In this document: one piece after another, positions 41,753-57,369 of the stretch | Position numbering within the stretch: the stretch's first letter is position 1 | Layout: each line of letters starts with the position of its first letter | Source: Thermococcus siculi | Lineage (GTDB): Archaea; Methanobacteriota_B; Thermococci; Thermococcales; Thermococcaceae | Direction: 5' to 3' | Length of the DNA stretch: 64,000 bases | NCBI RefSeq assembly: GCF_002214505.1 | Contig: NZ_CP015103.1 | Coordinates: 310,001-374,000, forward strand | Program-made: the position numbers and the translations under genes | Notes under the pieces: generated by a model | Databases searched by the model: none | Told to the model about the DNA's origin: nothing | Seen by the model: only the letters and a program-made list of their open reading frames with translations

Positions 41753-42205
41753 TTAAACCCCAGCCTTCCTTAGAATTTCTCTGTACTCCTTCTCCCTGAC
41801 GTATCTTCCAGAGACGGCGATGAACCTCGGCGGCTTAACGGACTTCGGGTACTTCCTGATGTTCTTCAGCCTGAGAACCATCCAGGGCCTCGGCCTCTTT
41901 CCGCGGGAATTCCACTTCTCACGCTCCTTCTCATACTGTCTGAGCTCCTCTGGCGTGAGGAAAAGCTCGTCTCCATATTTCCTGATAATCTCCTCAACGT
42001 TCGTGAACTGCTTAACTGCCTCAACTTCGGCCTCTCCAAGCCACGCCTGGCCTTCTCTGGAGGCGTAGAAGACGACCTTCATGCCCGGCTGAACTCTCAG
42101 CGTTGAAGGCTTGACGAAGACTGTCTTGCCCTCTTCAAGAATTCTGTCAAGGAACCATTTTGGGACAGGAAAGGTAACGCCAACGATCTTTTCCTCCGTT
42201 TTCAT
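41753..42205 (-). CDS. DUF365-like PUA/ASCH-type protein
   Basis: This 150-residue protein has a beta-rich N-terminal part (FPVPKWFLDRILEEGKTVFVKP..., MKVVFYASREGQAWLGEAEV) that resembles archaeal DUF365 and, more widely, PUA/ASCH/EVE-like folds that bind modified bases in RNA or DNA. A basic C-terminal tail follows (PRPWMVLRLKNIRKYPKS). It sits at one edge of the defence island; an EVE protein sits at the other. The family call is from memory and moderate. Confidence 0.6.
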   Translation of the reverse strand: MKTEEKIVGVTFPVPKWFLDRILEEGKTVFVKPSTLRVQPGMKVVFYASREGQAWLGEAEVEAVKQFTNVEEIIRKYGDELFLTPEELRQYEKEREKWNSRGKRPRPWMVLRLKNIRKYPKSVKPPRFIAVSGRYVREKEYREILRKAGV

Positions 42206-42270
42206 TGCAATCCCCTACTTACAACTAAGTATCTTTGCCTTTTTATTGTTGTCCTTTCAGATAATAAAAA

Positions 42271-45200
42271 TCAGGAAGAGTTCCGAGGTATGAACAGCAG
42301 CCCTGCAACAATATGTGGTTTTGTCCCTTCTATTTCTCTTTTTTTAGCTTCTTCCTGAAGAGTTCTGCGGCGGGTAGCGATGCCAAAACGATCTATCAGT
42401 TCCTTGCAAAGCTCGATTATTTCTTCCGTGCGGGTGTTTCTGTGGACTTTTGCCTTCAGCAAGGCATCTTTAAACGGCTCATGGTTTAGATAACCCCACT
42501 GGACAAGATCTAATAATTTTGATATAACCTCCCTTTCCCCGGGGTTTTTGGTCCTCTCTAGCCTGCTCTGGAGCCTCTGAAGTACCAGTCTGATCTTGGG
42601 AGGGTACTTAGAGGGCCGCCTCCTACCGTATTCAAGGGTGCTGCCACTTATCTTTAGGAGCCTCTTAAAGTCTCTCAAGGCAATTCTTGCAACCTCACGA
42701 TAGAGTTCCATGGCATTTTCATCATTGTACGGTGGCGTTTCCTCTGACAGCCCGGTTCTGCCAATTAACTGCTCTATCGGAACGTTTTGCTTCTTCCATT
42801 CTCCCTCTACAAGCCTGTAGATCAGGTATTGCGACGTAGCACCGTTGGAGAGGACAAAGAAGGCATGAGGCTCCCTGGCCTCTGAAAGGGCAATGCTCCT
42901 CATTGAATACCTTTTTTTCAGTTCTTTAAACCTTTCTCTGTGGGACTCCAGGTATTCCCTTACAAGTTTCTCCGCGAATGTTGTGACCGAAAGGAGGGTC
43001 TTATCAGCTTCAAGTTCGATCTCGTCCAGGCTGCTGGTCCTGTAAATCGCCTCTATCGCGGACGGGTTCCACTCCTCGGACTCTTCGAGGATTTTGCCAT
43101 CGGCACCAAGTGCATTGTTGAACTCTGCAATTCTCCGCCTAACCTTTTCAACCAAACCCAAATTCTCTTCGAGTCTAGTCTCGGGGAAGAAGTTGTAGAC
43201 CAGGATTTCGTCATGTTCCGTTCCTATCCTGTCCACTCTTCCTATGCGCTGTATGAGCTTTATCGGGGTCCAGTGGAGGTCATAATTAACGACGACGTTT
43301 GCATCCTGGAGGTTGAGGCCCTCGCTGAGGACGTCCGTGGAGACAAGAACGTCAAGTTCATCCTCCCTGTCTATGTATTCTTCGTAGTTGTTTGCTCTCG
43401 GTGCAAACCGCCTTATCTTATCGGCGATTCCTTTTGTGTTTGAGCTTACGTAGGCCATCCTGCGTTTGAGCTCTTCATCCTCTATAATCTCTTGGAGCCC
43501 CTCATAGACCCACTGAACGGTCTCCTCAAACTCACTGAATACCAGTATCTTCTTCCCTTCCTTCCAAAGCCTCTGTATTTCTTCAGCGAGGACCTTCAGT
43601 TTCGGATCCCTTTCAGGGTTCTTCTTGAGGTATTCCTTTAAGGGGTACAGAGCCGCCTCCATGGCCCTGAGCTTTTCCAAATCGTAGCGGAGGTCATCCA
43701 GGAGTTCGCCCCTTCTGAAGGCACCGGCCTTGTACTGCGGAGTCCTCGAGGCAGTGAATTCCTTAATGAATTCTTCAACTTCCTCATCACTGAGAACCTT
43801 GGGTGCCCTGTTTCCGTTTATCTTTCCAAGAAGAACGTCATCAAACTCATCTCCAGCTGGGATGAACCTGTGCTCCACGAACTTGATGAAGTTCTCAGTC
43901 TTTATTATGTCCCTTTTCAGGGTCTGGTACATGGCATACCATGAACTCTCAAGGCGTTTGAGATAGAGGATCCTCATTAAGCCTCTCAAGTTTTTCCCGA
44001 TGGAGGACAGGTTTCTGTATGGCTCGGCTTCTCTGTAGTGGGGGATCACATAGTCATAGAGGGCAAACCTCGCGTATTTCATTGAGCTGATACCTGCGAG
44101 GAAGAGGGTGTAGATGTCATCCGGTTTTATCGGGGAGTCGAAGGCTATCCTTGAGACAAGCTCCTTGGGGATGAACTCAATTGGATAAACTTCTGAAATC
44201 TTGTACGTCAGGACTGAAAGCTTCCTCCTGGGGAAGCACAGTGGTTCTTTGCGCTTCTTTACTTTTATGCAGTTGTCCTTCCCCCCGTAGAGGCGCAGGA
44301 TATCGTATCTAGTTCTTCTTATCATGATCTCCCGAAGAACGTACGAGGGGTCTATTTCCCCTTTTTCAATGGCTTTCACAAGTTCGTCCCACGTTTGAGG
44401 GGTTATGGGAAACGGATGCCTCCTCTCAGGCAGGAAAAGACGAATCTGGTTGATTATGTCCCTGTACTGCTTTCTGTATGGGGTGGCGGTGAGTAGGATG
44501 ACCCTCTTGCCGGTAAGGAGCTCCTGAAGGTTTCTGTAGGACTTTGTGTTCGTGTTGGCGTAGTGGTGAGCCTCATCCACCAAAACAGTTTCTACGCTCC
44601 GGATGTATTTTTTCATTTCCTCGTACTTTTCGGGGGAAAGTTCCCTGCGGGGCAATAAACCTGCGGAAAACACCCGTCCTGGAATGCGGAATTCATTGAG
44701 GAGACCTTCCCAGTACCTAACCAGTTCAGGAGGGGCTATAACCGCAACTTCTTTTGAGCGACCTTGGAGGAACTCAAAGAGGGAGAAGTGCTCCAGTAAT
44801 GCAAGCCCTATGTAGCTCTTTCCAAGACCAACAACGTCACTTATGAGAACTCCACCATATTTGTTCACTATCGCTATGGCCCTCCTGACAGCGTCCCTCT
44901 GGAAATCGTAGAGAGTCTCATCCAGTTTTCTAAGGAGAAACCTTGAGTCCTCTTCCAGCACCTCCTTGTAGAGCTCGTAGAGACCCCGGATTAGGACCTC
45001 ATATGGCAGGGGGAGGTTTCCGGGAACTTGGTTTGCCCAGCTCCTCTCAATCACTTCAAGAAGCTTGGGGTTAAATGGTACCGCCTCCTCCCATATCTCA
45101 TCGTACCATTCTTTGAGGCTCTCAAAGTGCGTTGACTGGACGAGCGCGTTTAGCTCAGTATTGCCGGAGAATCCCGCCAGAGTGAAGTTGCTTGAGCCCA

Positions 45201-45744
45201 CCAGTCCAATTCTCGTAACCGAACCCCTTGCAGGGTAGAAGAGATAGGCCTTGGCGTGCATAAACTCCTTTACGTAGACGCGAATCTCAAGGTTCCCGTC
45301 TCTAAGCCATTCTAGCAGTTTTCGAAGGAACTCCTCGTTCTCTAGAGTCTGCTCCATATAGTTTGCGTTAGCCTCGATGTCCCTGCTCTGCTCATCCAAG
45401 TTAGATTTCTCGCTTTCAGTTTTTTCCTTCAATCTCTTCAGGGTTTCGAGTGAGTGGTAAACCATGCTTAACTGTTCGTATGTCTCCCTGTTGGTCTGGT
45501 TCCCAATGACTATGCGCATTTTTCCACCGCGGGAGAAGAACCCTTCAAGCTCATCCTGTATTTCCTTTAACCCGCTGATGAACAGAAAACCCACTGCAAC
45601 GTCTATCTGGCTGTAATCCCCGGATGTTAATATTTCTCTAAGGACATCTATCAGCTTGATTCCCTTTTTCTCGCCGTTCACTTCCCTGAGTCTGTTATCC
45701 ACAAGCCCATATTTATCGAGAAGGGAGATTGCAGATTCGGTCAT
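42271..45744 (-). CDS. PLD-nuclease/SNF2-type helicase fusion (defence)
   Basis: This 1157-residue protein has an N-terminal phospholipase-D-like domain with one HKD-type motif at about 161 (MHAKAYLFY...GSSNFTLAGF). It is followed by a SNF2/superfamily 2 helicase: Walker A VGLGKSY (about 305), DEAH (about 388), LLTATPYRK and motif VI QRIGRVDRIG (about 829). A helical C-terminal region completes it. PLD-SNF2 proteins act with adenine methyltransferases in restriction-like systems, and DrmD of DISARM is a SNF2 relative. ATG 45744 follows AGGTGGGTGA. It shares strand with, but is 11 kb from, the large methyltransferase. Confidence 0.85.
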   Translation of the reverse strand: MTESAISLLDKYGLVDNRLREVNGEKKGIKLIDVLREILTSGDYSQIDVAVGFLFISGLKEIQDELEGFFSRGGKMRIVIGNQTNRETYEQLSMVYHSLETLKRLKEKTESEKSNLDEQSRDIEANANYMEQTLENEEFLRKLLEWLRDGNLEIRVYVKEFMHAKAYLFYPARGSVTRIGLVGSSNFTLAGFSGNTELNALVQSTHFESLKEWYDEIWEEAVPFNPKLLEVIERSWANQVPGNLPLPYEVLIRGLYELYKEVLEEDSRFLLRKLDETLYDFQRDAVRRAIAIVNKYGGVLISDVVGLGKSYIGLALLEHFSLFEFLQGRSKEVAVIAPPELVRYWEGLLNEFRIPGRVFSAGLLPRRELSPEKYEEMKKYIRSVETVLVDEAHHYANTNTKSYRNLQELLTGKRVILLTATPYRKQYRDIINQIRLFLPERRHPFPITPQTWDELVKAIEKGEIDPSYVLREIMIRRTRYDILRLYGGKDNCIKVKKRKEPLCFPRRKLSVLTYKISEVYPIEFIPKELVSRIAFDSPIKPDDIYTLFLAGISSMKYARFALYDYVIPHYREAEPYRNLSSIGKNLRGLMRILYLKRLESSWYAMYQTLKRDIIKTENFIKFVEHRFIPAGDEFDDVLLGKINGNRAPKVLSDEEVEEFIKEFTASRTPQYKAGAFRRGELLDDLRYDLEKLRAMEAALYPLKEYLKKNPERDPKLKVLAEEIQRLWKEGKKILVFSEFEETVQWVYEGLQEIIEDEELKRRMAYVSSNTKGIADKIRRFAPRANNYEEYIDREDELDVLVSTDVLSEGLNLQDANVVVNYDLHWTPIKLIQRIGRVDRIGTEHDEILVYNFFPETRLEENLGLVEKVRRRIAEFNNALGADGKILEESEEWNPSAIEAIYRTSSLDEIELEADKTLLSVTTFAEKLVREYLESHRERFKELKKRYSMRSIALSEAREPHAFFVLSNGATSQYLIYRLVEGEWKKQNVPIEQLIGRTGLSEETPPYNDENAMELYREVARIALRDFKRLLKISGSTLEYGRRRPSKYPPKIRLVLQRLQSRLERTKNPGEREVISKLLDLVQWGYLNHEPFKDALLKAKVHRNTRTEEIIELCKELIDRFGIATRRRTLQEEAKKREIEGTKPHIVAGLLFIPRNSS

Positions 45745-46130
45745 CAGAGTTCACCCACCTGTCAGTGTTTACCGCCTTTTCTTCTTGAAGATATCCTAAC
45801 CAAGTTTTATCAATTTTGTGCAGAAGGTATCTAACACAATCTCTTAGTAGAAAGAGGTCAGTTGACACCAGTGTGTGTTGAGTGTAGCTTACCCGTCATA
45901 TCCTAAATGTGGGATCATAATGGCGTTAATGTACTTTGAATAATATGCTCGTTCAGAAAATGTGGATGATACTAGTCTTGTCTCCTCCTTAGACTGAATG
46001 AACGCTGGACAGAGTAAAAAAACCCATCATTGGTGATGGGTCATCACCTATTTGAGATTTTGAAGAGCTGGTGAGCTGGCCTCAAAGCCATATGGTTCGT
46101 ATTTTCCTGATGATCCACCTTACCTGCTGG
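45745..46130. other. gap between helicase and HEPN operators
   Basis: No gene is visible in this AT-rich stretch. It holds the upstream region of the helicase gene (a TATA-like AAAACTTGGTTAG on the minus strand is weak) and the terminator-like hairpin at 46016-46041. Confidence 0.5.
46016..46041 (-). terminator. hairpin plus T7 terminator on the minus strand
   Basis: The minus strand reads an 8-bp stem ACCCATCA/TGATGGGT with loop CCAA, directly followed by seven T. It lies between the seven-gene defence operon (read-through from 47251) and the helicase gene, so it would stop that transcript after it crosses the HEPN/MNT pair in antisense. Confidence 0.6.
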
Positions 46131-46132
46131 AG

Positions 46133-46224
46133 ATTATCATGGCAACAATACCTGGTGTTTCCACTTTTCCTGTTATCATGATAACAAAAAGCTTTATATA
46201 TATGCTATTGGTTATCATGACAAC
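46133..46224 (+). promoter_or_regulatory. triple palindromic operator around the HEPN/MNT promoter
   Basis: Three copies of GTTATCATGATAAC: 46133-46146 (imperfect), 46172-46185 (perfect; 16-bp palindrome at 46171-46186) and 46211-46224 (imperfect). Their centres are exactly 39 bp apart. The TATA box GCTTTATATATATG (46191-46204) lies between the second and third, and the third overlaps the expected transcription start. This is a layout for repression, probably by the toxin-antitoxin products. Confidence 0.8.
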
Positions 46225-46235
46225 GGGGAGATCGG

Positions 46236-46565
46236 ATGGTTAGTCTTCAGGAACTCAAGGCCAATGCCAAAGAATACCTCGAAGACGCTGACTACCTATT
46301 CAGCAAAGGCCACTACAACTCGGCCTTAAACCTCTACTTCAAGGCCCTCGTGGCAATTTGCGACTACATCATCCTCAGAGATGCCGGAAAACTCCCAAGA
46401 AACCACACCGAACGCTTCAGAATTCTGGAGGCCAAGTATCCAGAGATATACGAGATTGTGGACTTTCACTTCAACAACTACCGCAGAGCATACCTCATGA
46501 GGGCCACAGAGGAGTGGGTGGAGGTGCTAAAGAATGACGTCCACAGACTCTACACCAAAATCTGA
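46236..46565 (+). CDS. HEPN-domain protein (putative toxin)
   Basis: This 109-residue helical protein has HEPN-like features: N-terminal EYLEDADYLFSKGHYNSALN, the polar motif RNHTERFR in the loop, and FHFNNYRRAYLMRAT. Partners of this type are RNases held silent by a nucleotidyltransferase. ATG 46236 follows ACGGGGAG. The next gene overlaps its end by 32 bp. It is transcribed against the surrounding defence genes, so it is likely an inserted module. Confidence 0.75.
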   Translation: MVSLQELKANAKEYLEDADYLFSKGHYNSALNLYFKALVAICDYIILRDAGKLPRNHTERFRILEAKYPEIYEIVDFHFNNYRRAYLMRATEEWVEVLKNDVHRLYTKI

Positions 46566-47178
46566 CAGTCTTTTCTCATTTCCCTCCTTCTGGCATCTTA
46601 GGGATACGGTAAAGGACTTCCTCAAAAGCCACGAGGAAGTCTTCGATGTAGTCCTATACGGCTCAACAGTTCTAGGAAAGGAGAAACCCAACGACATAGA
46701 TCTGATGATACTCACCCGCGGGAAACTTCCGCCCCTGAAGCTCCGGGAGCTGATCCTCCAGCTGAAGGGGACCCTCTCTACAGCGATCCCTCGGGAAAAA
46801 CTCGACGTTAGGGCCATGAGCCTCGAAGAGCTCTTCGATCCCAACAACCTCGCGAGCCTTGGAGTGCTGGTTGAGGGCTACTCCCTCCGCCATAACAAAA
46901 ACCTCGCGGAGCTGATGAACGGGAAAGCCTACGCCATCTTCCGCTTCACTCTGGGAGGGCTTCCGAGGAAGGACAGGGTGCGCTTCCAGTACGCGCTGAA
47001 GGGAAGGGACATGAGAAGCGGTCTGCTGAAGGAGCTCAACGGTGAGCAGTGGGGAGCGTGGGTGGTGGCGGTGCCCATCCAGCACACGTACCGCTTTAGG
47101 GAGTTCCTCGAGCTGTGGGGGGTTAAGTACGAGGCCTTTACAGTCCTTAAAGGGGCGGACCTGTTTTACACGTTTTAG
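46534..47178 (+). CDS. nucleotidyltransferase (antitoxin-type, MNT family)
   Basis: This 214-residue protein has the polymerase-beta-like motif YGSTVLGKEKPNDIDLMIL (Gly-Ser and Asp-x-Asp intact) near residues 42-60. A C-terminal extension (about 100-214) is longer than in minimal MNT proteins. It is co-translated with the HEPN gene (overlap; GAGGTG upstream of ATG 46534). In such pairs the nucleotidyltransferase modifies the HEPN toxin. The extra domain may provide DNA binding to the operators; this is inference. Confidence 0.8.
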   Translation: MTSTDSTPKSDSLFSFPSFWHLRDTVKDFLKSHEEVFDVVLYGSTVLGKEKPNDIDLMILTRGKLPPLKLRELILQLKGTLSTAIPREKLDVRAMSLEELFDPNNLASLGVLVEGYSLRHNKNLAELMNGKAYAIFRFTLGGLPRKDRVRFQYALKGRDMRSGLLKELNGEQWGAWVVAVPIQHTYRFREFLELWGVKYEAFTVLKGADLFYTF

Positions 47179-47250
47179 CATGACATCTATTAAGCCCGGA
47201 CGCCAAGGTGCATGAAGAAACTAAAAAGCATCCATCGGCCTTATTTGTTC

Positions 47251-47730
47251 TCATTTGAGTGATATCCAAGGGGTTCTAACGTTCTCGTCACATGCAGTGA
47301 TCCAGGCTTTGTCAAAATTCTTTAACTCTCCCAGTAGCATTTTATCACGCTTTATGAGTGCCCCAACCACTGAAGTAACCTCTTCTGGGATTACCAAAAC
47401 AGCACAGTACCCTACGTTCTTTTTGCCACTCAATCCAAAAACGGGCATAAGTTCCTCTTTCAAGAGTTTTAGGGTCTGAGGAAACTTGCCCTGAAGGCTT
47501 TCACGAAGGTTTCCCTTAGTAACGTCATTTATCTCTTTGAGTTCTACTACGAGTGCTGTAAATTCCTCATTCTTAAAGGTGATGTACACAAAATCGCAGT
47601 GTGCTCCACCGATGCTCTTTGCCTTATGGTACATTTCGAGATTTAGAATTACGTATGGCTCGCCTCCTTCTATTCCTACACCACAATCGCCATCGCTGTA
47701 TTCTCCCTTTATCCTGTGCAATATTCTCAC
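47251..47730 (-). CDS. small PD-(D/E)xK-like putative nuclease
   Basis: This protein of up to 159 residues has the pattern D46 (HCDFVYITF) then E63-L-K65 (ALVVELKEIND), fitting the nuclease core D...ExK, with helices on either side. It directly follows the AAA ATPase with a 1-bp gap (TGA-G-GTG), so they are one unit. The start is GTG 47730, or a TTG at 47721 that lies better behind GAGGTGAG. The nuclease call rests on the motif alone. Confidence 0.6.
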   Translation of the reverse strand: MRILHRIKGEYSDGDCGVGIEGGEPYVILNLEMYHKAKSIGGAHCDFVYITFKNEEFTALVVELKEINDVTKGNLRESLQGKFPQTLKLLKEELMPVFGLSGKKNVGYCAVLVIPEEVTSVVGALIKRDKMLLGELKNFDKAWITACDENVRTPWISLK

Positions 47731-47731
47731 C

Positions 47732-49423
47732 TCACAAGCTTAGGGCCCATGAGGCTAGAATATCCGTGATTACTGTAATTCCCGGAACTTCTCTAAGGAT
47801 GTCCTTTGCAGAGATTTCAGACACTTCTACACTGCCATCGGGTTTAGGAACATAATAGTAAAACCTCATGTCGAGATCCTTTGCCTGTGAAACAGCTTTG
47901 GCAAGAGGTCTCACCTCTTCCTCCCCTACGTCGATAGCCTGTATTCTGAGCAGTTCCTGTATCAACTTGATTATGCTGTTTTCGTCATAATTAAGCTCCT
48001 TCAAATAGGCCAGTGTGATCGCGAGTACATCGCTGTGAGTGCTGAAGAGGATTTTGTGGTCAAACCCTTTTGAAAGGCCAGCCAGCACTAATGCCATTAA
48101 AATCTGAGCTGAGTAGTGCAGTTGAGCTTCTGGTTCTTCTATGATCAGGTAAGAATTTGGAGGGATGCTTAGAATGGGCAACATGATTCCTGAGACTTCC
48201 CCTGCGAGTGCGGAGGCTAAAGTTATTGGCACATCTGCAGAGCCCCATTTTTGATACCTAAGCTTTTTCACGGTGGTGTCAAACGTTAGTCTTCCTTGAA
48301 GAACTGGATTAAACAGCCTGGCAAGTTTTTCGTCGTATTCGTCCTTCAATAGTTTTCTGCGTCCCCTGGCGAGATGGTGGAGATATGAGTAGAAAACAAT
48401 GTTGTCTCTGTACATTGTAACGAATCTATCCCACAGGTACGGTTCATTGGAGATTGAATCAAGCTGGTAAACAAATGGACTCCTCCCGAAGGGGACGAAT
48501 AGGACTGAACTAATACCGAGGACGTCTTCATGTATGTTCTTAAGTGCCTCACTGATTTCTTTTGTAAGATAAGCCAGAAGATTCATTCCAAACCTAGACA
48601 ACTTTCTAAACATGGATCCAAAGCTTAATTCCAAGGGGAGACGGATTCTTGACCTTTGGAGGACTGTTTTAATCACTAAATCTGCACTCACATTTTCCTT
48701 GTCGGAGGGGAGTTCTTTGCTTACATACACTCTAATCTGTTCCCACAGGGGGCTGTGGAAAGGTATCTTGCTCTCTATTCTGATTGTTATATTCAAGTTT
48801 TTATCTAATCCAAGTTCAGAGGAAGCGTGAAGGAGGGAACTGATCATCAATTGCTCGTCGTTACTGACGTTTTCCCATGTGTGAGGGGTTTTCAAAATGT
48901 CCATAAAAATTGTCTCTAGCTCGGGAACCAACAGCTCGGGGATTTCGATTTTCGTACCCTCCTTAAGGGGCAATATTTCTTGAGTTAGGGAGAGAAGGTT
49001 TTCTTGGAACAAATCAACTATCACATCAATGTTGATGGATTCGGTAATCTTCAGGGCTACTACTAAACTATCGGCTTCTTCTCTTATTACTATTTCATCT
49101 AGCCCAAATCTCTCTCGTAAAATTCCGAGAATTTCATCGAGATTGTCCTGATTGATATAGTCATAAACTGCCATAGCAGTTATCAGACACCGGGGAGTCG
49201 TTCGCCTAATGAATGTTTCAATGCGATCCAAGAGCTCTAACTCCCTCACAGTTTTGACAAAGAGTCTCTCCCTTGCTACTTCATCAAGAAGCATGAGTTG
49301 AATGTAAGCGGATTTCAGGGTGTATGACTTTCCAGAGTTTGGAGGGCCAAGTAGCACGGTTATATCCCCAAGTTCCAGTTCGGCATCTTTTAATGGCCCC
49401 ACGTTTTTGATGGAGATTTTCAT
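47732..49423 (-). CDS. AAA/OLD-like ATPase (defence)
   Basis: This 563-residue protein starts with the SMC/OLD-type pattern KISIKNVGPLKDAELELGD and has Walker A GPPNSGKS (26-33). A long variable helical middle is followed by Walker B with extra Glu (YLIIEEPEAQLH) and the STHSD switch. No TOPRIM domain follows, so it is not a complete OLD nuclease. A separate nuclease-like protein is coded next. ATPase-nuclease pairs of this kind are common in phage defence. Composition is AT-rich, unlike core genes. Confidence 0.82.
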   Translation of the reverse strand: MKISIKNVGPLKDAELELGDITVLLGPPNSGKSYTLKSAYIQLMLLDEVARERLFVKTVRELELLDRIETFIRRTTPRCLITAMAVYDYINQDNLDEILGILRERFGLDEIVIREEADSLVVALKITESINIDVIVDLFQENLLSLTQEILPLKEGTKIEIPELLVPELETIFMDILKTPHTWENVSNDEQLMISSLLHASSELGLDKNLNITIRIESKIPFHSPLWEQIRVYVSKELPSDKENVSADLVIKTVLQRSRIRLPLELSFGSMFRKLSRFGMNLLAYLTKEISEALKNIHEDVLGISSVLFVPFGRSPFVYQLDSISNEPYLWDRFVTMYRDNIVFYSYLHHLARGRRKLLKDEYDEKLARLFNPVLQGRLTFDTTVKKLRYQKWGSADVPITLASALAGEVSGIMLPILSIPPNSYLIIEEPEAQLHYSAQILMALVLAGLSKGFDHKILFSTHSDVLAITLAYLKELNYDENSIIKLIQELLRIQAIDVGEEEVRPLAKAVSQAKDLDMRFYYYVPKPDGSVEVSEISAKDILREVPGITVITDILASWALSL

Positions 49424-49446
49424 TGGAGTCCACCCTCAAAAAGCAT

Positions 49447-50213
49447 TCAGCTTTTATTCTTTTTAACATTTTGGAGATCCCTCTTAAACTGGCATTCATT
49501 GAACTTCTGAGTGAACTCTTTGAGGCCGTGTCTGGCCGCTTTTTTGAAGCACCGCTTGTACCCTCGGTTGATTCCGAGGGCGTGGTTTATCACGATGAGT
49601 CCGGAGGTGGAGTTAAACTTTCCTATTCCCCTAGAAAGCTCCTGGCTAAAGACCTTCCTCTCCTTTTCGGTCTTTCGCATTTCCTGGGCAATCAGGGGCA
49701 GATAATCAGTGAGTGATTCGATATCAGGCTTTTCTTTTTCAAAGGCTTCGATTAGACCTTCGAGTAACACAATTTGTGTTCCATCCAGCTCAATGGCCGA
49801 GATTATCATTTTTTCGTGTCTCTTAACCAATCTCATTAATTCCTGCATGCTCTTCGTCATTTCAATGTAATCATTTTCAAGCTGTTCGATTATGGCCCTG
49901 GCCTTTTCTTTAGGTTCGAAGGGAGGCACTGCCACGGAGTACATTAAGAGTGCTCCAAAGGCGTAAGAAACGTCATCTGCCAGTTTTTCAAGATCCTTAC
50001 TGGCCTTGTCGAGCTTTTTCTGGAACGTGAGTGCTAGCGATCTTTTGAGATTCCTTTTCTCCTCCTCTTTCTTTCTCCACTTGATGAAGTCAACACCGAT
50101 TTTGAAAAACTCGTATAATGCGATGGCAAGGCTGAAGTATGGCTTGAGATTGGCGCAATTGTCCCTCCCGAGCCCGTAAAGATTTCAAATATTGCCTTGT
50201 CGAGCTCGTTCAT
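49447..50213 (-). pseudogene. coiled-coil protein gene with one frameshift
   Basis: The start MNELDKAIFE (ATG 50213, GGTGGGGA site) runs out of frame near 50184. One base removed from an A-run (GAAAATC to GAAATC) would explain it. The restored product is about 255 residues: ...NLYGLGRDNCANLKPYFSLA..., then FKIGVDFIKWRKKEEEKRNL and a long charged helix region to the stop at 49447. I recognise no family. It lies between the nuclease-like gene and the ATPase in the same operon. A sequencing error is possible. Confidence 0.75.
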
Positions 50214-50225
50214 CGGAATCCCCAC

Positions 50226-50237
50226 CTAACATGTTAG
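50226..50237. promoter_or_regulatory. 12-bp palindrome upstream of the coiled-coil gene
   Basis: CTAACATGTTAG is a perfect palindrome just before the ribosome site, in a 60-bp gap with an AT-rich CAATAATAA stretch that could be an internal TATA box. A possible operator; no direct evidence. Confidence 0.3.
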
Positions 50238-50273
50238 TTATTATTGAGATGGCTTTGATTTTGGGAGGGAACT

Positions 50274-51188
50274 TCACTCAAGTCTCCTAAGCTCTCTTTC
50301 GTCTACTGGAGTGAATGTGAACTCAATGACCCCAAATGTTCCTTCCCCGTAGTATTCTTCAAATTCACTTGGGGGATCTGGCTGAAGGCCTGTAAATCTG
50401 TAAATTGTATTAACTAGATCTTTCAATTCCGAATTCGAAGTCATGCCATTGTTGATAACATACCCACCAATTCCATTCTTTCTGAGGAACTTGTAGAGCC
50501 ATAATGCATAGCTTCCGCATACAAATTTATTATACCATGTGCAACCTGAAAATGAGGGTATTGTTGAGTAAATGACTGGGACAAAGAAATCCATTGGGAT
50601 TGTGTAATCTTTGCATGGTTTTTGTCTCCAAAGCTCAACTATCTCGGGACTCGCAGCTAAATTGGGAATATCCTCGGATGTAGACATTAGTAAATATGTA
50701 AACAACCATTTAGATTTAGAGGTTATTTTTCTTTTCCTCTGAGAACCCCACCTTTTTCCAAAGTGAAATGGATACTTGCTAGGGGTAAACAAGAATTCTT
50801 GCTGATGAGCGCTTATTTTCCAGTTATTTGTACTTTTATTTAACTTAGCTTGCAAGAAAGACGTGCGCATCTGGTCGATCATTCTGCGCCCATTATGATA
50901 CTTAATCACAAACAAAATGTCCCCTAGCTCTACACGAGACTTGTTACATGGGCCACTGTTTGAAGAAAAAAGCGCATAAGGCTTTTGATGGACGACTTTA
51001 GATCTGATCTGGAGGCGATAATATCCAAACCCGCGTACCCATATTAGGTACTTGTTATGCTGTTGAAGTCTACCAATATACTCATTAACAATCTGAGGCT
51101 CACTTAACGAGGGATTTTCTAAAATCACCTGTTTTAGCATTCCATCCAAAGATGCCGACAACACATCGAGTGGTACTGGACCAGTCAT
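50274..51188 (-). CDS. putative nuclease (PD-(D/E)xK, QxK variant) of the Kiwa-like cassette
   Basis: This 304-residue protein has D90 in VELGDILFVIKYH and Q113-A-K115 in TSFLQAKLNK. This resembles the QxK variant of the PD-(D/E)xK active site seen in some defence nucleases. The rest has mixed composition with several Trp and Cys (FSGCTWYNKFVCGSYA). It starts 6 bp after the KwaB-like gene with AGGTGAG, so the three genes form one unit. I recognise no named family. Confidence 0.6.
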   Translation of the reverse strand: MTGPVPLDVLSASLDGMLKQVILENPSLSEPQIVNEYIGRLQQHNKYLIWVRGFGYYRLQIRSKVVHQKPYALFSSNSGPCNKSRVELGDILFVIKYHNGRRMIDQMRTSFLQAKLNKSTNNWKISAHQQEFLFTPSKYPFHFGKRWGSQRKRKITSKSKWLFTYLLMSTSEDIPNLAASPEIVELWRQKPCKDYTIPMDFFVPVIYSTIPSFSGCTWYNKFVCGSYALWLYKFLRKNGIGGYVINNGMTSNSELKDLVNTIYRFTGLQPDPPSEFEEYYGEGTFGVIEFTFTPVDERELRRLE

Positions 51189-51194
51189 ACTTTC

Positions 51195-52307
51195 TCACCT
51201 CAGCTCCTCTGGTTTTCCCTTTGAAATGTGCTTGTTATTCAGAGTTTTTGTAAATCTAGCCCCTATCACACCCAGAATCTCCCTAACAGCCTTTTTGTAT
51301 TCCTTAGAGTTAGTAGGTGGAAGTATGACCCTATTTGCAGTTTCATCAATATCAAACGAAACCTCCTCGCCGAACTTCTCTTTTACCCATTTGAAGTCTT
51401 CTATGGTTGCTTCGTTCATGTATTGCCTTGTCACAGGATGGAGTAGCATTTTATAGAGCTGTCTGTTGGATTCCACAACCTGCTTAAAATTCTGGAGGTC
51501 TTCATCTGCGAGAACTGATTGAAGCATATTACATTGCTCCAGGACTTCTAGGGCTTTTTGTTTTTGGTGTTCATAGACATCTAGCAAAGACTCAAAGCCA
51601 CCCTTATTCCAGATTACCCCCCAAGACGACTCTGCCCTATTGGGATCCCTCTCATCAAACCTCACAATGAACACAAAGTCTGCAGAATTATCAAACTCAA
51701 TTCCCTCAACAGTTTCTATGGCATTAAAGGCTAGTATTAGTCCATCATCTCCGGTTTCTTCAATGGAGTTAAGTACAGTTCCTCTATGGACGAGACCACC
51801 TTTTAGGAAACGTTTTTTGACAACTTTGGATTTTGAAAGTCGTTTAGCATATCCAATAGCATACTGTGAACCACGTAGGAAAAATAAGTATCCCCACAAG
51901 TTACTCTCGATGTTCTTGGGCGTTCTCTCTACCTCATAATCAAGTCTAAGAGCTTCAGTAAAATAAGACCAATATGGAAAGTCTATGGGAGACAATTCAA
52001 CATAACAAGGTGTCTCTTCTAAATCAGGATGATACCGAGGGATGCTCTCTGTTTCCAACTTCGAAAGAGAGCCAATGTATGTAGACAAGATTTCCTTTAA
52101 GCTATCTGCAACTTCATCTGTAATTCCTGCATAATAAAAGAGATACTTGTATTGCCTGTTTTCCCCGTCTTGCTTAGGATACCTCTTAATAATAAACATC
52201 TCCGGAACTAAGCCTTCTCTCCCAATTTCGGGAAATCTAGAGGTAATTTCTGAAATATTAATTCTTGCTAGATCGTTCCCATCTGAATCAACTCTTGTTT
52301 GGTTCAT
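51195..52307 (-). CDS. KwaB-like protein (DUF4868), Kiwa-type defence
   Basis: This 370-residue soluble protein resembles the DUF4868 family, to which KwaB of the Kiwa anti-phage system belongs. Support includes strands such as ILAFNAIETVEGIEF, FVFIVRFDE and the WGVIWNKGGFESLLDVYEH region. KwaB acts with the membrane protein KwaA and binds DNA. The gene overlaps the four-helix membrane protein gene by 20 bp in the order kwaA-kwaB, which strengthens the call. The match is from memory and partial; an HMM search is needed. Confidence 0.55.
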   Translation of the reverse strand: MNQTRVDSDGNDLARINISEITSRFPEIGREGLVPEMFIIKRYPKQDGENRQYKYLFYYAGITDEVADSLKEILSTYIGSLSKLETESIPRYHPDLEETPCYVELSPIDFPYWSYFTEALRLDYEVERTPKNIESNLWGYLFFLRGSQYAIGYAKRLSKSKVVKKRFLKGGLVHRGTVLNSIEETGDDGLILAFNAIETVEGIEFDNSADFVFIVRFDERDPNRAESSWGVIWNKGGFESLLDVYEHQKQKALEVLEQCNMLQSVLADEDLQNFKQVVESNRQLYKMLLHPVTRQYMNEATIEDFKWVKEKFGEEVSFDIDETANRVILPPTNSKEYKKAVREILGVIGARFTKTLNNKHISKGKPEELR

Positions 52308-52836
52308 ACTTACTCACGCCCCCCTTGTGATGAATAAAGATATTGGAACCGTTATCGAGTGAATACGCCTGCAAAAATAACTCTTCATTCCTATTAAGCT
52401 TTTCTCTAGATAAGAGTATCCCATCTTTATTATTAATTGTGCATAAATAGAGATTGTATCCGAAGAGTAACTTTAGGAGAGGGTTAACTGCAAAAAGGGA
52501 TGTGGTTAGATAAAGGGCAAAGATAACAACGATTAAAATCCCCATGGAGATTACATCATTCACAGTCTTGATAGTTCCAATAAAAGGAACTATGTATGTG
52601 ACAATAAAACCAACATATTGTTCATTAATATCTCTATCTATCTTGACCACTATTGGTTGTCCGATTAGCTTTTTCACAGAACTCATGACAGCCCAAGCCA
52701 TTAGGAAAATAATAACAAATACTCCCGTACCAACAATAAGTCCCAACTTTAGAGGAAGATTCTTTATTGAGAGTATCACAAAAAGGGGAGAATACGCCAG
52801 CAAACTTAGAATAAGTTTTGCCCATCTCTTAAGCAT
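52288..52836 (-). CDS. KwaA-like four-helix membrane protein
   Basis: This 182-residue protein has four hydrophobic helices (about 8-27, 31-51, 74-90, 97-120) and a cytoplasmic C-terminal domain of about 55 residues. YIVPFIGT lies in helix 3, and NPLLKLLFGYNLYL follows helix 4. Kiwa's KwaA is a small four-helix membrane sensor coded just before KwaB, as here. GGGAGAGG precedes ATG 52836, and the methyltransferase stop lies 15 bp upstream. The membrane topology is clear; the family call is inferred from size and context. Confidence 0.55.
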   Translation of the reverse strand: MLKRWAKLILSLLAYSPLFVILSIKNLPLKLGLIVGTGVFVIIFLMAWAVMSSVKKLIGQPIVVKIDRDINEQYVGFIVTYIVPFIGTIKTVNDVISMGILIVVIFALYLTTSLFAVNPLLKLLFGYNLYLCTINNKDGILLSREKLNRNEELFLQAYSLDNGSNIFIHHKGGVSKYEPNKS

Positions 52837-52851
52837 GGGGCCTCTCCCTCC

Positions 52852-55800
52852 TCACCCCTTCTTTTTCTTCCCTGAAAACGTCTTCGCCTTCACCAGCCTC
52901 GCCTTCACGAGCTCCACGACGGCCCTGTAAACCTCAAGCTGCTCCTCCTCGGTCAAGCCGAGCGCCTCGAAGATCACCCTGTCAAGCTCGCGCCTGTCGG
53001 GTAGAACCTTATCGAGGGAGACGTCCTCAGGGTTGATGTTGCTCAGGTCGCGGTTGGGCTTCGGGAGGCCGAGCTCCTCGAAGATGGATTTGATTGTGCG
53101 GTTGGCCATTTGTTCGAAGGCTTGGAGGAGACGTTGGATCTGAGTCTGAGACAAACTAGTTGGATCGGGGACAAAAATCTCAGCAGTTTCATAAACTTTG
53201 AAATCCAATGCTCCTTCTCCTAGGTTAGCTCTTCCCGTAAGTTCAATTATCATGGGAGTTAAAGTAGTATTTAAAACACCAGCTAGGAGTGCTGAGGGAA
53301 CATTGTTCTTTTTGTAGATGTCATACAAACGAGCATCACATAAAGCAACGTCATTCAACCAAAATGGGAATCTTGTATTGTAGCTCATCATAGAAGCCAG
53401 ATTTCCTATTTTTCTTTCTCCTAATGCCCACCAAGGATTTCTCGCTCTACATGTAGGCTTATCTTGATACCCCTTGCCTTCTCCCCACTCGATGTACTCT
53501 AAGGCGTGAACCTTGCCAGCTCTCTTTAGCTCTTCCTTTGAGAGGTTGCATAGGAACACACGAAGATTCAGATCTTCGGGTCTAATCACATAGGTCTTTA
53601 TCTCTTGTGGACTCTTAACAACAGGCCTCAAAAACTCCTCTTCAATGTACCCCTCCCAACCGGCTCTGTTCCTCACCGCCACCAGGCCCTCTCCCGGCTT
53701 GTGAACCCTTCCACACAGGGGACAGACGGGCCACTCTGTCGGGTTCTTTATCGGCTCCAGATAGAAGAACTCGTTGGCCCCAGTTTTGATGCCAAACCTG
53801 ACCTCTGCAATCTCCCCAAGCTTCACCAGCTTGTCCTTCCCCTTGTCGAGGATCACGTAGAATATCCTCGGCGCCCTTATGAGTATCCCGCCCCACTTCA
53901 TCCCGCTGTATTCACCGAAGATGTTGTAGGTTCCCAGAAGTGGGTTCCTCTTCCCGACCTCGAAGCCCCCCATTTTGGCGAGCTCCACCGCTTTGACGCT
54001 CCTTATCCTCGCCTCATCGTCCTCGTAGCTGTGGACAACCCCTCCGAAGACCTCGACACCCTTCACCTTTCCGGCGTAGCATTCGAGCAGCTTCGCCGCA
54101 ACTTTGGAGTCAACTCCCTCAAAGCCCATCTTCAGCAGGATGAAGTTGACGCACTCTCCCCCCACAGTGTTGAAGAGCTCCTTGGGCTTTCTAGTGAGGA
54201 CAGTTATCACGGTGTTCACATCTGCCTGCTCGAAGCTCCTCCTCGTGTAGTCAATCACCGCCCTCAGGTGGGTGAAGCGGAGGAAGAACTCCTGCAGGGC
54301 CTTTCCGAAGTCCACATCCAGCCACGAGTTTGATGTAATGAATACCAGCGATCCCTTCGGGTTCAGCAGGTTGACCGACTGGATGAAGAAGTACGAGTAG
54401 AGGTCGCTCCTGCCGGGGAGCTTCATCTCACCCTTGAACTTCTCCTTTATTATGGTTTCCATGTGGGTCTTTATCTTGTTCTTGTAGTCCTTCTTCAGCC
54501 TCTCCTGCTCCTTCTTCGGGAGCATCTGGAACTCCGCTAAATCGTAGTACTCCGGGTAGATCTTCTCCTGCCGCACATACGGTGGGTTCGCTATCACGAT
54601 ATCGAAGCCCTTCTTTTCGAGCATCACATCGGGGAAGTCGAGCTCCCAGATGAACGGGGGCTTCTCGAGGGCGGAGAAGTCCTCCTTCTTCACCGCCTCA
54701 AGGAGTAGCCTGATTTCCTTCTTCTCTTTCGCTTTCAGCTCCTCCTGAAGGGCCATCTCAAGGAACTCCTGGAGGACTCCCCACTTGGCTTTCTCTATGT
54801 CCCTGAGCGTTACGGGCTTGCCCTCTATCTTCTCGCCCATGTAGTACTTCCTCACGAGCCCCTTGTAGGCCACTATGGCCTCGCTGGCGCCCCTCCTTGC
54901 ACCAAGAAGCTTGAGGCCCTCACGGAACTTGGCGAGGGGTATCTCAATGACCTTCCTCCCTCCACCGACCTTCAGAACGAAGTGGGGAGGCGCCAAAGAG
55001 TCTCCAACCGTCAGCTTCGTCTCAAGGTTGGGCAGTATCGGCTCGTTGGGGATTCTCTCCTCTTCCTCGATGAGGGCCAGCCAGAGCCTAAGCTTCGCGA
55101 CCCTTATCGCCCACTCCTTGATGTCAACGCCGTAGATGTTGTCTCGTATTATCTCAAGCTTTTTCTTGTAGGTTGCCTTACTGTCCTCCGTCAGCTTCTC
55201 GTGGAGCTCGATGAGAAGGTGATACATGCCAACGAGGAAGGCACCGCTTCCGGCTGCGGGGTCAACTATCTTAACCTCGTTGAGGGCTTTTTCAAGCTCC
55301 TCAATCTCTCCCCACGACAGCTTCCCTGGTTTCCACTCGTGAGCGGGCGTAAAAACGAACTCCCTCACGAGTTCCTCCCCACTCCCCGTGTTCCTGCGGA
55401 GGTACTGGTAAACGGCCATCCTGCACATGAAGTCAACCTCTGCCCGCGGGGTGTAGAATATCCCTGAGGCTCTTCTCTCCTCTTCCTCACCGGCCTTTTC
55501 CTCCTCCGCAATGAGGGACTCGTATATCTTACCGAGCATGGCCGGGTCAACGGCCACCTCAACCTCATAAGGAGTCTCTTCGGTGACGGTGAAGTTGTAT
55601 CCATCAAAGAAGTCAACTATTATCCTCCTGAGCAGGCTGTCGTCAATCTCTGTAACTATCTCGTCTAGGTTCACGCCCTCCATCTTAATTGGGCTGAAGA
55701 GACCGCCGTTGAAGTAGGGGACACCGTAGAGGAAGACGTCCCTAACTGTGGGGGACGGTATTTTAGAGAGGGCCTCCTTGATTTCAGGGGTTTTAAGCCT

Positions 55801-56799
55801 GGCCCAGTCTCTTCTTGGAGTGTTCATCGCGTGGAGGAACAGAGCCCTCAGGTAACCACCGTAAAAGTTGCCCCCATACTCCTCGTGCTGCTCCAGAAGC
55901 CACCTGACGAAGTTCTTAACGTCAACTTTTTCCTGGAGCTCCTTTCTGAGGGCGGCTTTATCGACTATCCACCCCTTCTTCTGGAGGAAGTAGACGAACA
56001 TAAGCCTGTTGAAGAAGGTGTGAGCGAATGTCTTGGCGGCTCTCTCAACAAAAATCTCCTCAGCCTTGTCCCTTGGAACCGTTACGGACTCATCCACGGT
56101 CGAGAGGTAATTCCCCGGACAGGCAGTTCTAAGCATCTCCCCATAATTGGTCTTTATCCAGTCCTTGAGCTTCAGGTAATACCTCTTGTAGTCCTCAAAA
56201 AACTGCTCGGTTAAAGGCTGTACTAGCATGTGTTCATTTATCAGGGCCCTAATCTCACTTGCGGGAGGTACTTTCTTTTTCTTCTCAATTTCTTCAGCAA
56301 CCCTGGCAAGGTTCCAAGCAAGGGTTCTCAATCTCTTATCCTCAGGATCAATTGTGTAGATATTAAGCTTCGTGCTCTCCAACTGTCTCTGATAGACGGG
56401 TACGATGAGCTTCCAAAACTTGCGGGGGCCTCTGGGCGATTTCTTAACGTCGAGAATGAGAATGAAATTTGCAAAGTCCATCCCAACGGAACCTGTGAAC
56501 TCCAAGAGCTTCTTTATCAACCTCTGTCTGTATTTCACGGTGTCGCTCCAGGTCTCGCCGTATATCACAAAGAATTCGGCACCCTCTTCAGGTTTAGTGA
56601 TGGCAATAACCCTTAGAACTCCAGTGTTTTCTTCAACAAAGCCATCAAGGTAATCCATCTCTATGTCCTCATCTTCATAGCCAAATCCCCAGAACCTAGT
56701 AAAAATCTCGCGGAAGGTTCTAACGGCTTCGTCAGTTTTAATCCCCTTTTCAAGCCCCTCAAGAATAGCCCTGATTTTCTCGGCTTTGTCCTTAACCAT
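52852..56799 (-). CDS. Eco57I-like adenine-specific DNA methyltransferase (defence/RM)
   Basis: This 1315-residue protein has an N-terminal helical/nuclease-like region (about 1-200), a long middle region, SAM motif I PAAGSGAFLVG (about 512-523) and the catalytic NPPY (about 736) for N6-adenine methylation. A C-terminal target-recognition region includes a CPLCGRVH zinc-knuckle-like Cys pair. It resembles Eco57I/PglX-type enzymes. I start at MVKDK (56799), six bases behind AGGTGGG. A segment at about 53140-53600 is much more AT-rich than the rest, as expected for an exchanged recognition domain. It heads the defence operon. Confidence 0.85.
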   Translation of the reverse strand: MVKDKAEKIRAILEGLEKGIKTDEAVRTFREIFTRFWGFGYEDEDIEMDYLDGFVEENTGVLRVIAITKPEEGAEFFVIYGETWSDTVKYRQRLIKKLLEFTGSVGMDFANFILILDVKKSPRGPRKFWKLIVPVYQRQLESTKLNIYTIDPEDKRLRTLAWNLARVAEEIEKKKKVPPASEIRALINEHMLVQPLTEQFFEDYKRYYLKLKDWIKTNYGEMLRTACPGNYLSTVDESVTVPRDKAEEIFVERAAKTFAHTFFNRLMFVYFLQKKGWIVDKAALRKELQEKVDVKNFVRWLLEQHEEYGGNFYGGYLRALFLHAMNTPRRDWARLKTPEIKEALSKIPSPTVRDVFLYGVPYFNGGLFSPIKMEGVNLDEIVTEIDDSLLRRIIVDFFDGYNFTVTEETPYEVEVAVDPAMLGKIYESLIAEEEKAGEEEERRASGIFYTPRAEVDFMCRMAVYQYLRRNTGSGEELVREFVFTPAHEWKPGKLSWGEIEELEKALNEVKIVDPAAGSGAFLVGMYHLLIELHEKLTEDSKATYKKKLEIIRDNIYGVDIKEWAIRVAKLRLWLALIEEEERIPNEPILPNLETKLTVGDSLAPPHFVLKVGGGRKVIEIPLAKFREGLKLLGARRGASEAIVAYKGLVRKYYMGEKIEGKPVTLRDIEKAKWGVLQEFLEMALQEELKAKEKKEIRLLLEAVKKEDFSALEKPPFIWELDFPDVMLEKKGFDIVIANPPYVRQEKIYPEYYDLAEFQMLPKKEQERLKKDYKNKIKTHMETIIKEKFKGEMKLPGRSDLYSYFFIQSVNLLNPKGSLVFITSNSWLDVDFGKALQEFFLRFTHLRAVIDYTRRSFEQADVNTVITVLTRKPKELFNTVGGECVNFILLKMGFEGVDSKVAAKLLECYAGKVKGVEVFGGVVHSYEDDEARIRSVKAVELAKMGGFEVGKRNPLLGTYNIFGEYSGMKWGGILIRAPRIFYVILDKGKDKLVKLGEIAEVRFGIKTGANEFFYLEPIKNPTEWPVCPLCGRVHKPGEGLVAVRNRAGWEGYIEEEFLRPVVKSPQEIKTYVIRPEDLNLRVFLCNLSKEELKRAGKVHALEYIEWGEGKGYQDKPTCRARNPWWALGERKIGNLASMMSYNTRFPFWLNDVALCDARLYDIYKKNNVPSALLAGVLNTTLTPMIIELTGRANLGEGALDFKVYETAEIFVPDPTSLSQTQIQRLLQAFEQMANRTIKSIFEELGLPKPNRDLSNINPEDVSLDKVLPDRRELDRVIFEALGLTEEEQLEVYRAVVELVKARLVKAKTFSGKKKKG

Positions 56800-56937
56800 A
56801 GCCATCCCACCTGCGACTTTATCTGGGGAATAATCACCAAGTGGAGTATTTTAGGGTTGCGGTGGCTATTTATAAATTCTGAAGTGGAAGGGAAATTATT
56901 TATTCCCATATCACTATGGAACATCGGGTGAACCGCT

Positions 56938-57369
56938 ATGACCCACTGGCTCTGCATAACCAACCGAGGCAACTGGGAGGTTGTTAAGAAGAAGAACGTC
57001 TGGGGCGTTGCCAAAAGGCACAAAAACACCATTGCCAAAGTCAAGCCCGGTGACAAGCTCGTCTTTTACGTCAAGCAGGAGCGGAAGAATAAAGAAGTCC
57101 TCGAACCTAAGATCGTTGGCATCTTTGAGGTCGTTAGCGAGCCTTACACCGACTTAACAAAGATATTCAAGAGCCCTCCACATTTGAACGAGACTTACCC
57201 ACTGAGGGTGAAGATCAAACCGGTCAAGCTCGGAGAGCTCGACTTTAAGTCGCTCATTCCAAAGCTGAAGTTCATCACGAACAAGAAGAAGTGGAGCGGC
57301 CACTTGATGGGCAAGGCGATGAGGGAAATTCCCGAGGAGGATTACAAGCTTATTGAAAGCCTTCTTTGA
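56938..57369 (+). CDS. EVE-domain protein
   Basis: This 143-residue protein matches the EVE (PUA-like) fold: [31 protein letters not shown] and [16 protein letters not shown] domains bind modified bases in DNA or RNA and often occur near methyltransferase-based defence. It is divergent from the methyltransferase gene, sharing the 138-bp gap. ATG 56938 follows GGGTGAACC. Confidence 0.88.

Follow-up and report, generated by a model that had tools for sequence, protein, structure and literature searches.

The locus examined here lies in a 64,000-nucleotide stretch of Thermococcus siculi DNA (contig NZ_CP015103.1, positions 310,001 to 374,000; hereafter the window), taken from an archaeal genome of 2.03 Mb that forms a single contig. 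It comprises a kwaA-like gene, a kwaB-like gene and a third gene of unnamed family, set between a large adenine methyltransferase and a helicase together with several further genes (Table 1).

Table 1. Genes of the locus and distant relatives of its third gene. Positions refer to the window unless another locus is named.
Feature	Position	Strand	Description
Type IIG/Eco57I-like adenine methyltransferase	52852..56805	-	1317 aa; upstream border of the slot
kwaA-like gene	52288..52836	-	182 aa membrane protein
kwaB-like gene	51195..52307	-	370 aa
Third gene	50274..51188	-	304 aa, unnamed family; conserved E30, E87, D90, Q113, K115
Gene 4	49447..50225	-	About 245 aa where intact in relatives; frameshifted in the window
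AAA_15 ATPase, cargo	47732..49423	-	563 aa; PF13175 E 2.4e-14; also in G067
HEPN-like/nucleotidyltransferase pair, cargo	46236..47178	+	PF05168 E 1e-3 (weak); PF18765 E 1.9e-7
PLD (HKD) + SNF2 helicase	42271..45744	-	1157 aa; downstream border of the slot
Distant relatives of the third gene, with partners	L046 7955-11130; L047 6144-9276; L111 4277-8136		OLD-type ATPase-TOPRIM or PHP + Ppl-like pair

The genes of the cassette are packed closely. On the window's ORF coordinates kwaA and kwaB, in that order, overlap by 20 bp and the third gene follows kwaB after 6 bp, confirming the three-gene layout and spacing given in a preliminary description of this DNA; the methyltransferase ORF, upstream, ends 15 bp from the start of kwaA. 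The same description saw a four-helix membrane protein in the 182-residue product, and hydrophobic residues 5-59 and 86-121 fit approximately four helices, judged by hydropathy only. Because orthologues with equal order and spacing are found in Thermococcales-type genomes (G039, G041, G110 and contig L008), and because dN/dS is low, all three ORFs are real genes. The ratio lies mostly between 0.04 and 0.25 for kwaA, kwaB and the third gene in those pairs where it could be estimated, with a maximum of 0.42 in one third-gene pair, and the kwaA-kwaB order is kept in all relatives compared. Contig L008 (JALUKO010000075.1, 5 kb) is filed under a Helicobacteraceae MAG and bears the archaeal cassette with the same neighbouring genes; it is most likely misbinned archaeal DNA.

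On profile evidence the 182-residue protein is KwaA. Twelve PADLOC KwaA models match it (best E 2.7e-17), and it scores 59 bits (E 4.1e-16) against the NCBIfam KwaA model NF041622, under the equivalog cut-off of 100. When used as a tblastn query against plasmids, it recovered, among others, genes of Vibrio and Halobacterium that lie immediately 5' of an annotated kwaB; a KwaA scan of viral contigs returned no match. The 370-residue protein matches PADLOC KwaB at E 1.5e-6 and PF16162 at 18 bits, under the cut-off of 26.3. Its AlphaFold model (pLDDT 67) gave five Foldseek matches in the PDB with E<1e-3, all of them KwaB chains (9mtn, 9mrx, 9nyu), with the next match at 0.12. Sequence searches of the PDB with KwaA and KwaB profiles yielded nothing useful, and the KwaB match came via structure. 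As modelled, the protein is a distant KwaB (DUF4868) that aligns with the solved proteins over its full length, at about 12% identity in the structural alignment.

The Kiwa reading put forward in the preliminary description is thus borne out by the PADLOC KwaA matches and by a KwaB model that matches solved KwaB structures only, each protein having found its counterpart in a profile or structure search. The cassette is a genuine but divergent archaeal Kiwa: as in known Kiwa, a small KwaA with several membrane helices comes first and kwaB overlaps its gene; unlike known Kiwa, the cassette carries a third gene and is nested between a methyltransferase and a PLD-helicase. The preliminary description spoke of Kiwa as described in bacteria, and the implied novelty of an archaeal one is not supported. 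Plasmids of Halobacterium and Halomarina already have KwaB by name in their NCBI annotation, with a small unnamed gene preceding each, and the Halobacterium one is recovered with the window's KwaA as query; archaeal Kiwa as such is therefore not new. Kiwa is unmentioned in the main text of a 2026 archaeal defence survey (PMC12988326).

The surroundings of the cassette, absent from the preliminary description, reveal it as cargo. A methyltransferase (PF07669 E 9e-32; PADLOC REase_MTase_IIG E 4e-57), conserved in 16 of 115 genomes, and a PLD-SNF2 helicase (PADLOC C3a139 'HKD+Snf2' E 1e-58; PF00271, PF13091 and PF00176) stand at the two ends of a slot for exchangeable defence cargo; this arrangement occurs in 13 related archaeal genomes, compared over 13 loci (window 41753-57369, L009-L011, L026 and L070-L077). 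The position after the methyltransferase is filled by Kiwa in five loci (window, G039, G041, G110, G033), by a TIR protein in G067 and G038 (Pfam identification in G067), by a 601-606-residue protein without assigned family in G071 and G051, by a metallo-beta-lactamase + OLD pair in G094, by a PIN-domain protein in G089 and by other genes in G097 and G055. AbiEi/AbiEii and other modules sit nearer the helicase end. In relatives gene 4 comes after cargo of several kinds, Kiwa, TIR and OLD among them, and the slot may have it as a shared component; the window copy has suffered a single frameshift, leaving two fragments in different frames that both match the intact orthologue. The G051 methyltransferase (L074 1839-5832) consists of two fragments on opposite strands, which suggests that it was split by an inversion.

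Gene trees show that the cassette has moved. In the combined KwaA and KwaB tree the window groups with G041 and L008, apart from G039 and G110, with support of 98-100. The helicase tree places the window with G039 and G089, and G041 with G110; the helicase closest to that of the window is the one from G089, whose locus lacks Kiwa. When each gene was constrained to the grouping of the other, the constraint was rejected (p-AU from 1e-5 to <1e-30). Because the Kiwa and helicase trees conflict so strongly, we conclude that the cassette has been exchanged within the slot.

The third gene is closely tied to Kiwa among near relatives, and only among these. Our survey covered 115 genomes of the phylum, plasmids, phages, viral contigs and one genome-contig scan. 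Close Kiwa, identified through KwaB, occurs in five of the 115 genomes, and close orthologues of the third gene in four, all within those five; the other 110 have none, and no close orthologue was found away from kwaB among the 115. In all five loci that bear it, L008 included, the gene lies directly 3' of kwaB at a spacing of -4 to +7 bp. This coupling, seen in five of six close loci, sets the cassette apart from a two-gene Kiwa locus, with the kwaA-kwaB core left intact. The sixth Kiwa locus, G033, lacks the third gene: its kwaB runs straight into a gene-4 relative with no room between. HMM searches found no relatives of the third gene at the divergent Kiwa loci of G020, G021, G022, G037 and G049, or at Kiwa on Vibrio, Halobacterium, Hymenobacter, Halomarina and Microvirga plasmids. 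Co-occurrence with Kiwa, which the preliminary description proposed to survey, holds in four of the five genomes with close Kiwa and breaks down in G033 and some ten divergent loci.

Relatives of the gene also keep other company. Profile searches detected distant ones in G034 and G045, each adjoining an OLD-type AAA_15-TOPRIM gene (PF20469 E 2.9e-19; TOPRIM confirmed for the G045 gene), and in G108, beside a PHP + Ppl-like ATPase pair. Such direct adjacency recalls OLD, Gabija GajA-type and Ppl systems, whereas the partner in the window is Kiwa and not an ATPase nuclease. One close Kiwa locus and some ten divergent ones lack the gene, and its relatives partner other defence genes; Kiwa thus does not carry the third gene as a constant component. 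Searches of plasmids and phages by tblastn gave no match with either the third gene or its relative L047, and scans of viral contigs with A1, A5, L047 and L109 gave none. A single Streptomyces match to relative L109 in tblastn was rejected as spurious on inspection. In G041 the third gene (L010 9297-10244) has its HQKPYALF stretch in duplicate, has lost about nine residues elsewhere by deletion and stops early; from its sequence, it may be decaying.

This distribution leaves room for the main rival explanation, in which the third gene neighbours Kiwa within the cargo slot as a defence or toxin gene in its own right, co-transcribed with it and working alone. The G110 copy is only 47% identical to that of G039, beside KwaA and KwaB proteins that are 94% and 81% identical, and because it has diverged while its neighbours are conserved, the third gene may be swapped independently of kwaA and kwaB. 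An independent gene would fit this divergence, the exchange of many unrelated modules through the slot, and the occurrence of relatives without Kiwa and of Kiwa without the gene in G033. Yet all five close orthologues directly follow kwaB and are found nowhere else in the 115 genomes, and the relatives adjoin a partner ATPase instead of standing alone. We regard independence as a serious possibility, and still a doubtful one.

The preliminary description called the third gene nuclease-like from D90, Q113 and K115, residues it named before any alignment had been made. All three are at those positions and are invariant once very distant relatives are added. An alignment of eight members from three subfamilies, reaching down to about 21% identity to the window protein, contains 15 invariant columns, among them E30, E87, D90, Q113 and K115 and, outside the motif, C192, G242, G283 and G286. 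The chance of three preset positions falling among 14 invariant columns (without M1) of 304 is about 8e-5, a figure that ignores inflation by catalytic-type residues and by motif-guided alignment. The five residues follow the ordered E...D...QxK pattern of the PD-(D/E)xK active site, and the 23-residue spacing from D90 to Q113 is typical of a nuclease core. The 304-residue protein matches no family in Pfam, PADLOC, NCBIfam or PHROGs, a PD-(D/E)xK profile included, and a sequence search of the PDB was empty. Its AlphaFold model, built from 5 sequences, is unusable (pLDDT 38) and the Foldseek matches of that model are noise. Of the nuclease-like reading, then, the invariant motif stands and the fold is unmatched by profile or structure comparison; the conserved residues, a pattern in sequence only, are the main support for a PD-(D/E)xK-like site. 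The family shares the ordered and conserved E...D...QxK with PD-(D/E)xK nucleases that have a QxK site, such as those of the Mrr type. It differs from Mrr-type nucleases in profile, hhalign against Mrr from the same genomes giving a probability of 0.1, equal to column-shuffled controls, and from PD-(D/E)xK nucleases in that the third protein is larger, with a long C-terminal part.

The same data can be read as those of an adaptor or sensor that binds nucleic acid or a ligand on behalf of various ATPase or membrane defence partners, and that is no nuclease. Three different partners within one family would suit such a role, as would the absence of a nuclease profile or fold match and the invariant cysteine and glycines outside the motif. 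Against it, the invariant residues stand in the order and at the D-to-Q spacing of a nuclease core, and we judge the adaptor reading improbable.

The methyltransferase invites a further explanation, namely that a single restriction-like system is built from the methyltransferase, Kiwa, gene 4 and the PLD-helicase, with Kiwa as an exchangeable sensor or effector and methylation marking self. The tight spacing, of 15 bp from methyltransferase to kwaA, -20 bp from kwaA to kwaB and 6 bp from kwaB to the third gene, is consistent with this, as are Kiwa genes beside methyltransferases elsewhere, a handful of uncontrolled cases. In G022, kwaA-kwaB stands inside a Type I R-M operon (Pfam-checked), flanked by hsdM, one small ORF away, and by hsdS, and the layout in G037 and G049 is homologous; in Hymenobacter Kiwa follows hsdM, and in Halobacterium it adjoins the BREX-5 gene pglX. 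The frame lacks Kiwa in eight of the 13 loci compared, and the incongruence of Kiwa and helicase trees implies that neither needs the other. A single restriction-like system is accordingly quite unlikely. Identification of the island as DISARM or BREX is rejected: a large adenine methyltransferase and an SNF2 helicase bracket variable cargo here, as in DISARM, BREX and PLD-SNF2-methyltransferase islands, but the best PADLOC matches are the Type IIG methyltransferase and C3a139 HKD+Snf2, ahead of DrmMI, DrmD and PglX, and neither DrmB nor PglZ was found among the large window ORFs scanned (41.7-57.4 kb).

Two arrangements were observed at divergent Kiwa loci. In L029 (5453-15376; also L030 and L031), a Type I R-M operon contains a divergent kwaA-kwaB pair that separates hsdM from hsdS, and a GmrSD-type gene and hsdR come next. 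On a Halobacterium plasmid (L049 7565-8608), a gene annotated with an endonuclease NucS domain stands directly after Kiwa on the opposite strand.

We are now able to propose a mechanism for the extended cassette. A review describes KwaA as a tetramer in the membrane that detects infection, and KwaB as a protein that binds incoming DNA and does not cleave it (PMC12904381). If the archaeal proteins act as those of bacterial Kiwa do, KwaA would detect virus entry at the membrane, and KwaB would attach to the DNA coming in. We take the third protein to be, most probably, a metal-dependent PD-(D/E)xK nuclease with a QxK site, acting beside Kiwa; from its conserved residues, its coupling in the operon and the genes that partner it we infer that it would cut the DNA held by KwaB. 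Tight coupling to kwaB, purifying selection, an invariant motif and relatives partnered with an OLD-type ATPase-TOPRIM gene or a PHP + Ppl-like ATPase pair argue for such a role. Against it stand the missing profile or fold match, the Kiwa of G033 and of the divergent loci, which do without the gene, and the divergent copy in G110.

Taken together, we tentatively favour, with slightly less than even confidence, a divergent archaeal Kiwa that has acquired a co-translated third gene, the putative nuclease, and that travels as exchangeable cargo of the methyltransferase/helicase slot. A broader proposal, that the third family comprises new defence nucleases shuttled among sensor or ATPase modules (Kiwa, OLD, Ppl), which would turn archaeal Kiwa from DNA-binding to DNA-cutting, seems to us unlikely. 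The cassette itself is a real and new form of Kiwa, with a putative nuclease step. Because bacterial Kiwa has been described as binding viral DNA, not cutting it, a third gene that recurs and has a nuclease-like site would make this cassette a natural extension of Kiwa, suited to testing the effector step. More generally, the cargo slot, in which related archaea hold different defence modules within one frame, allows the exchange of whole systems to be studied in a defined setting.
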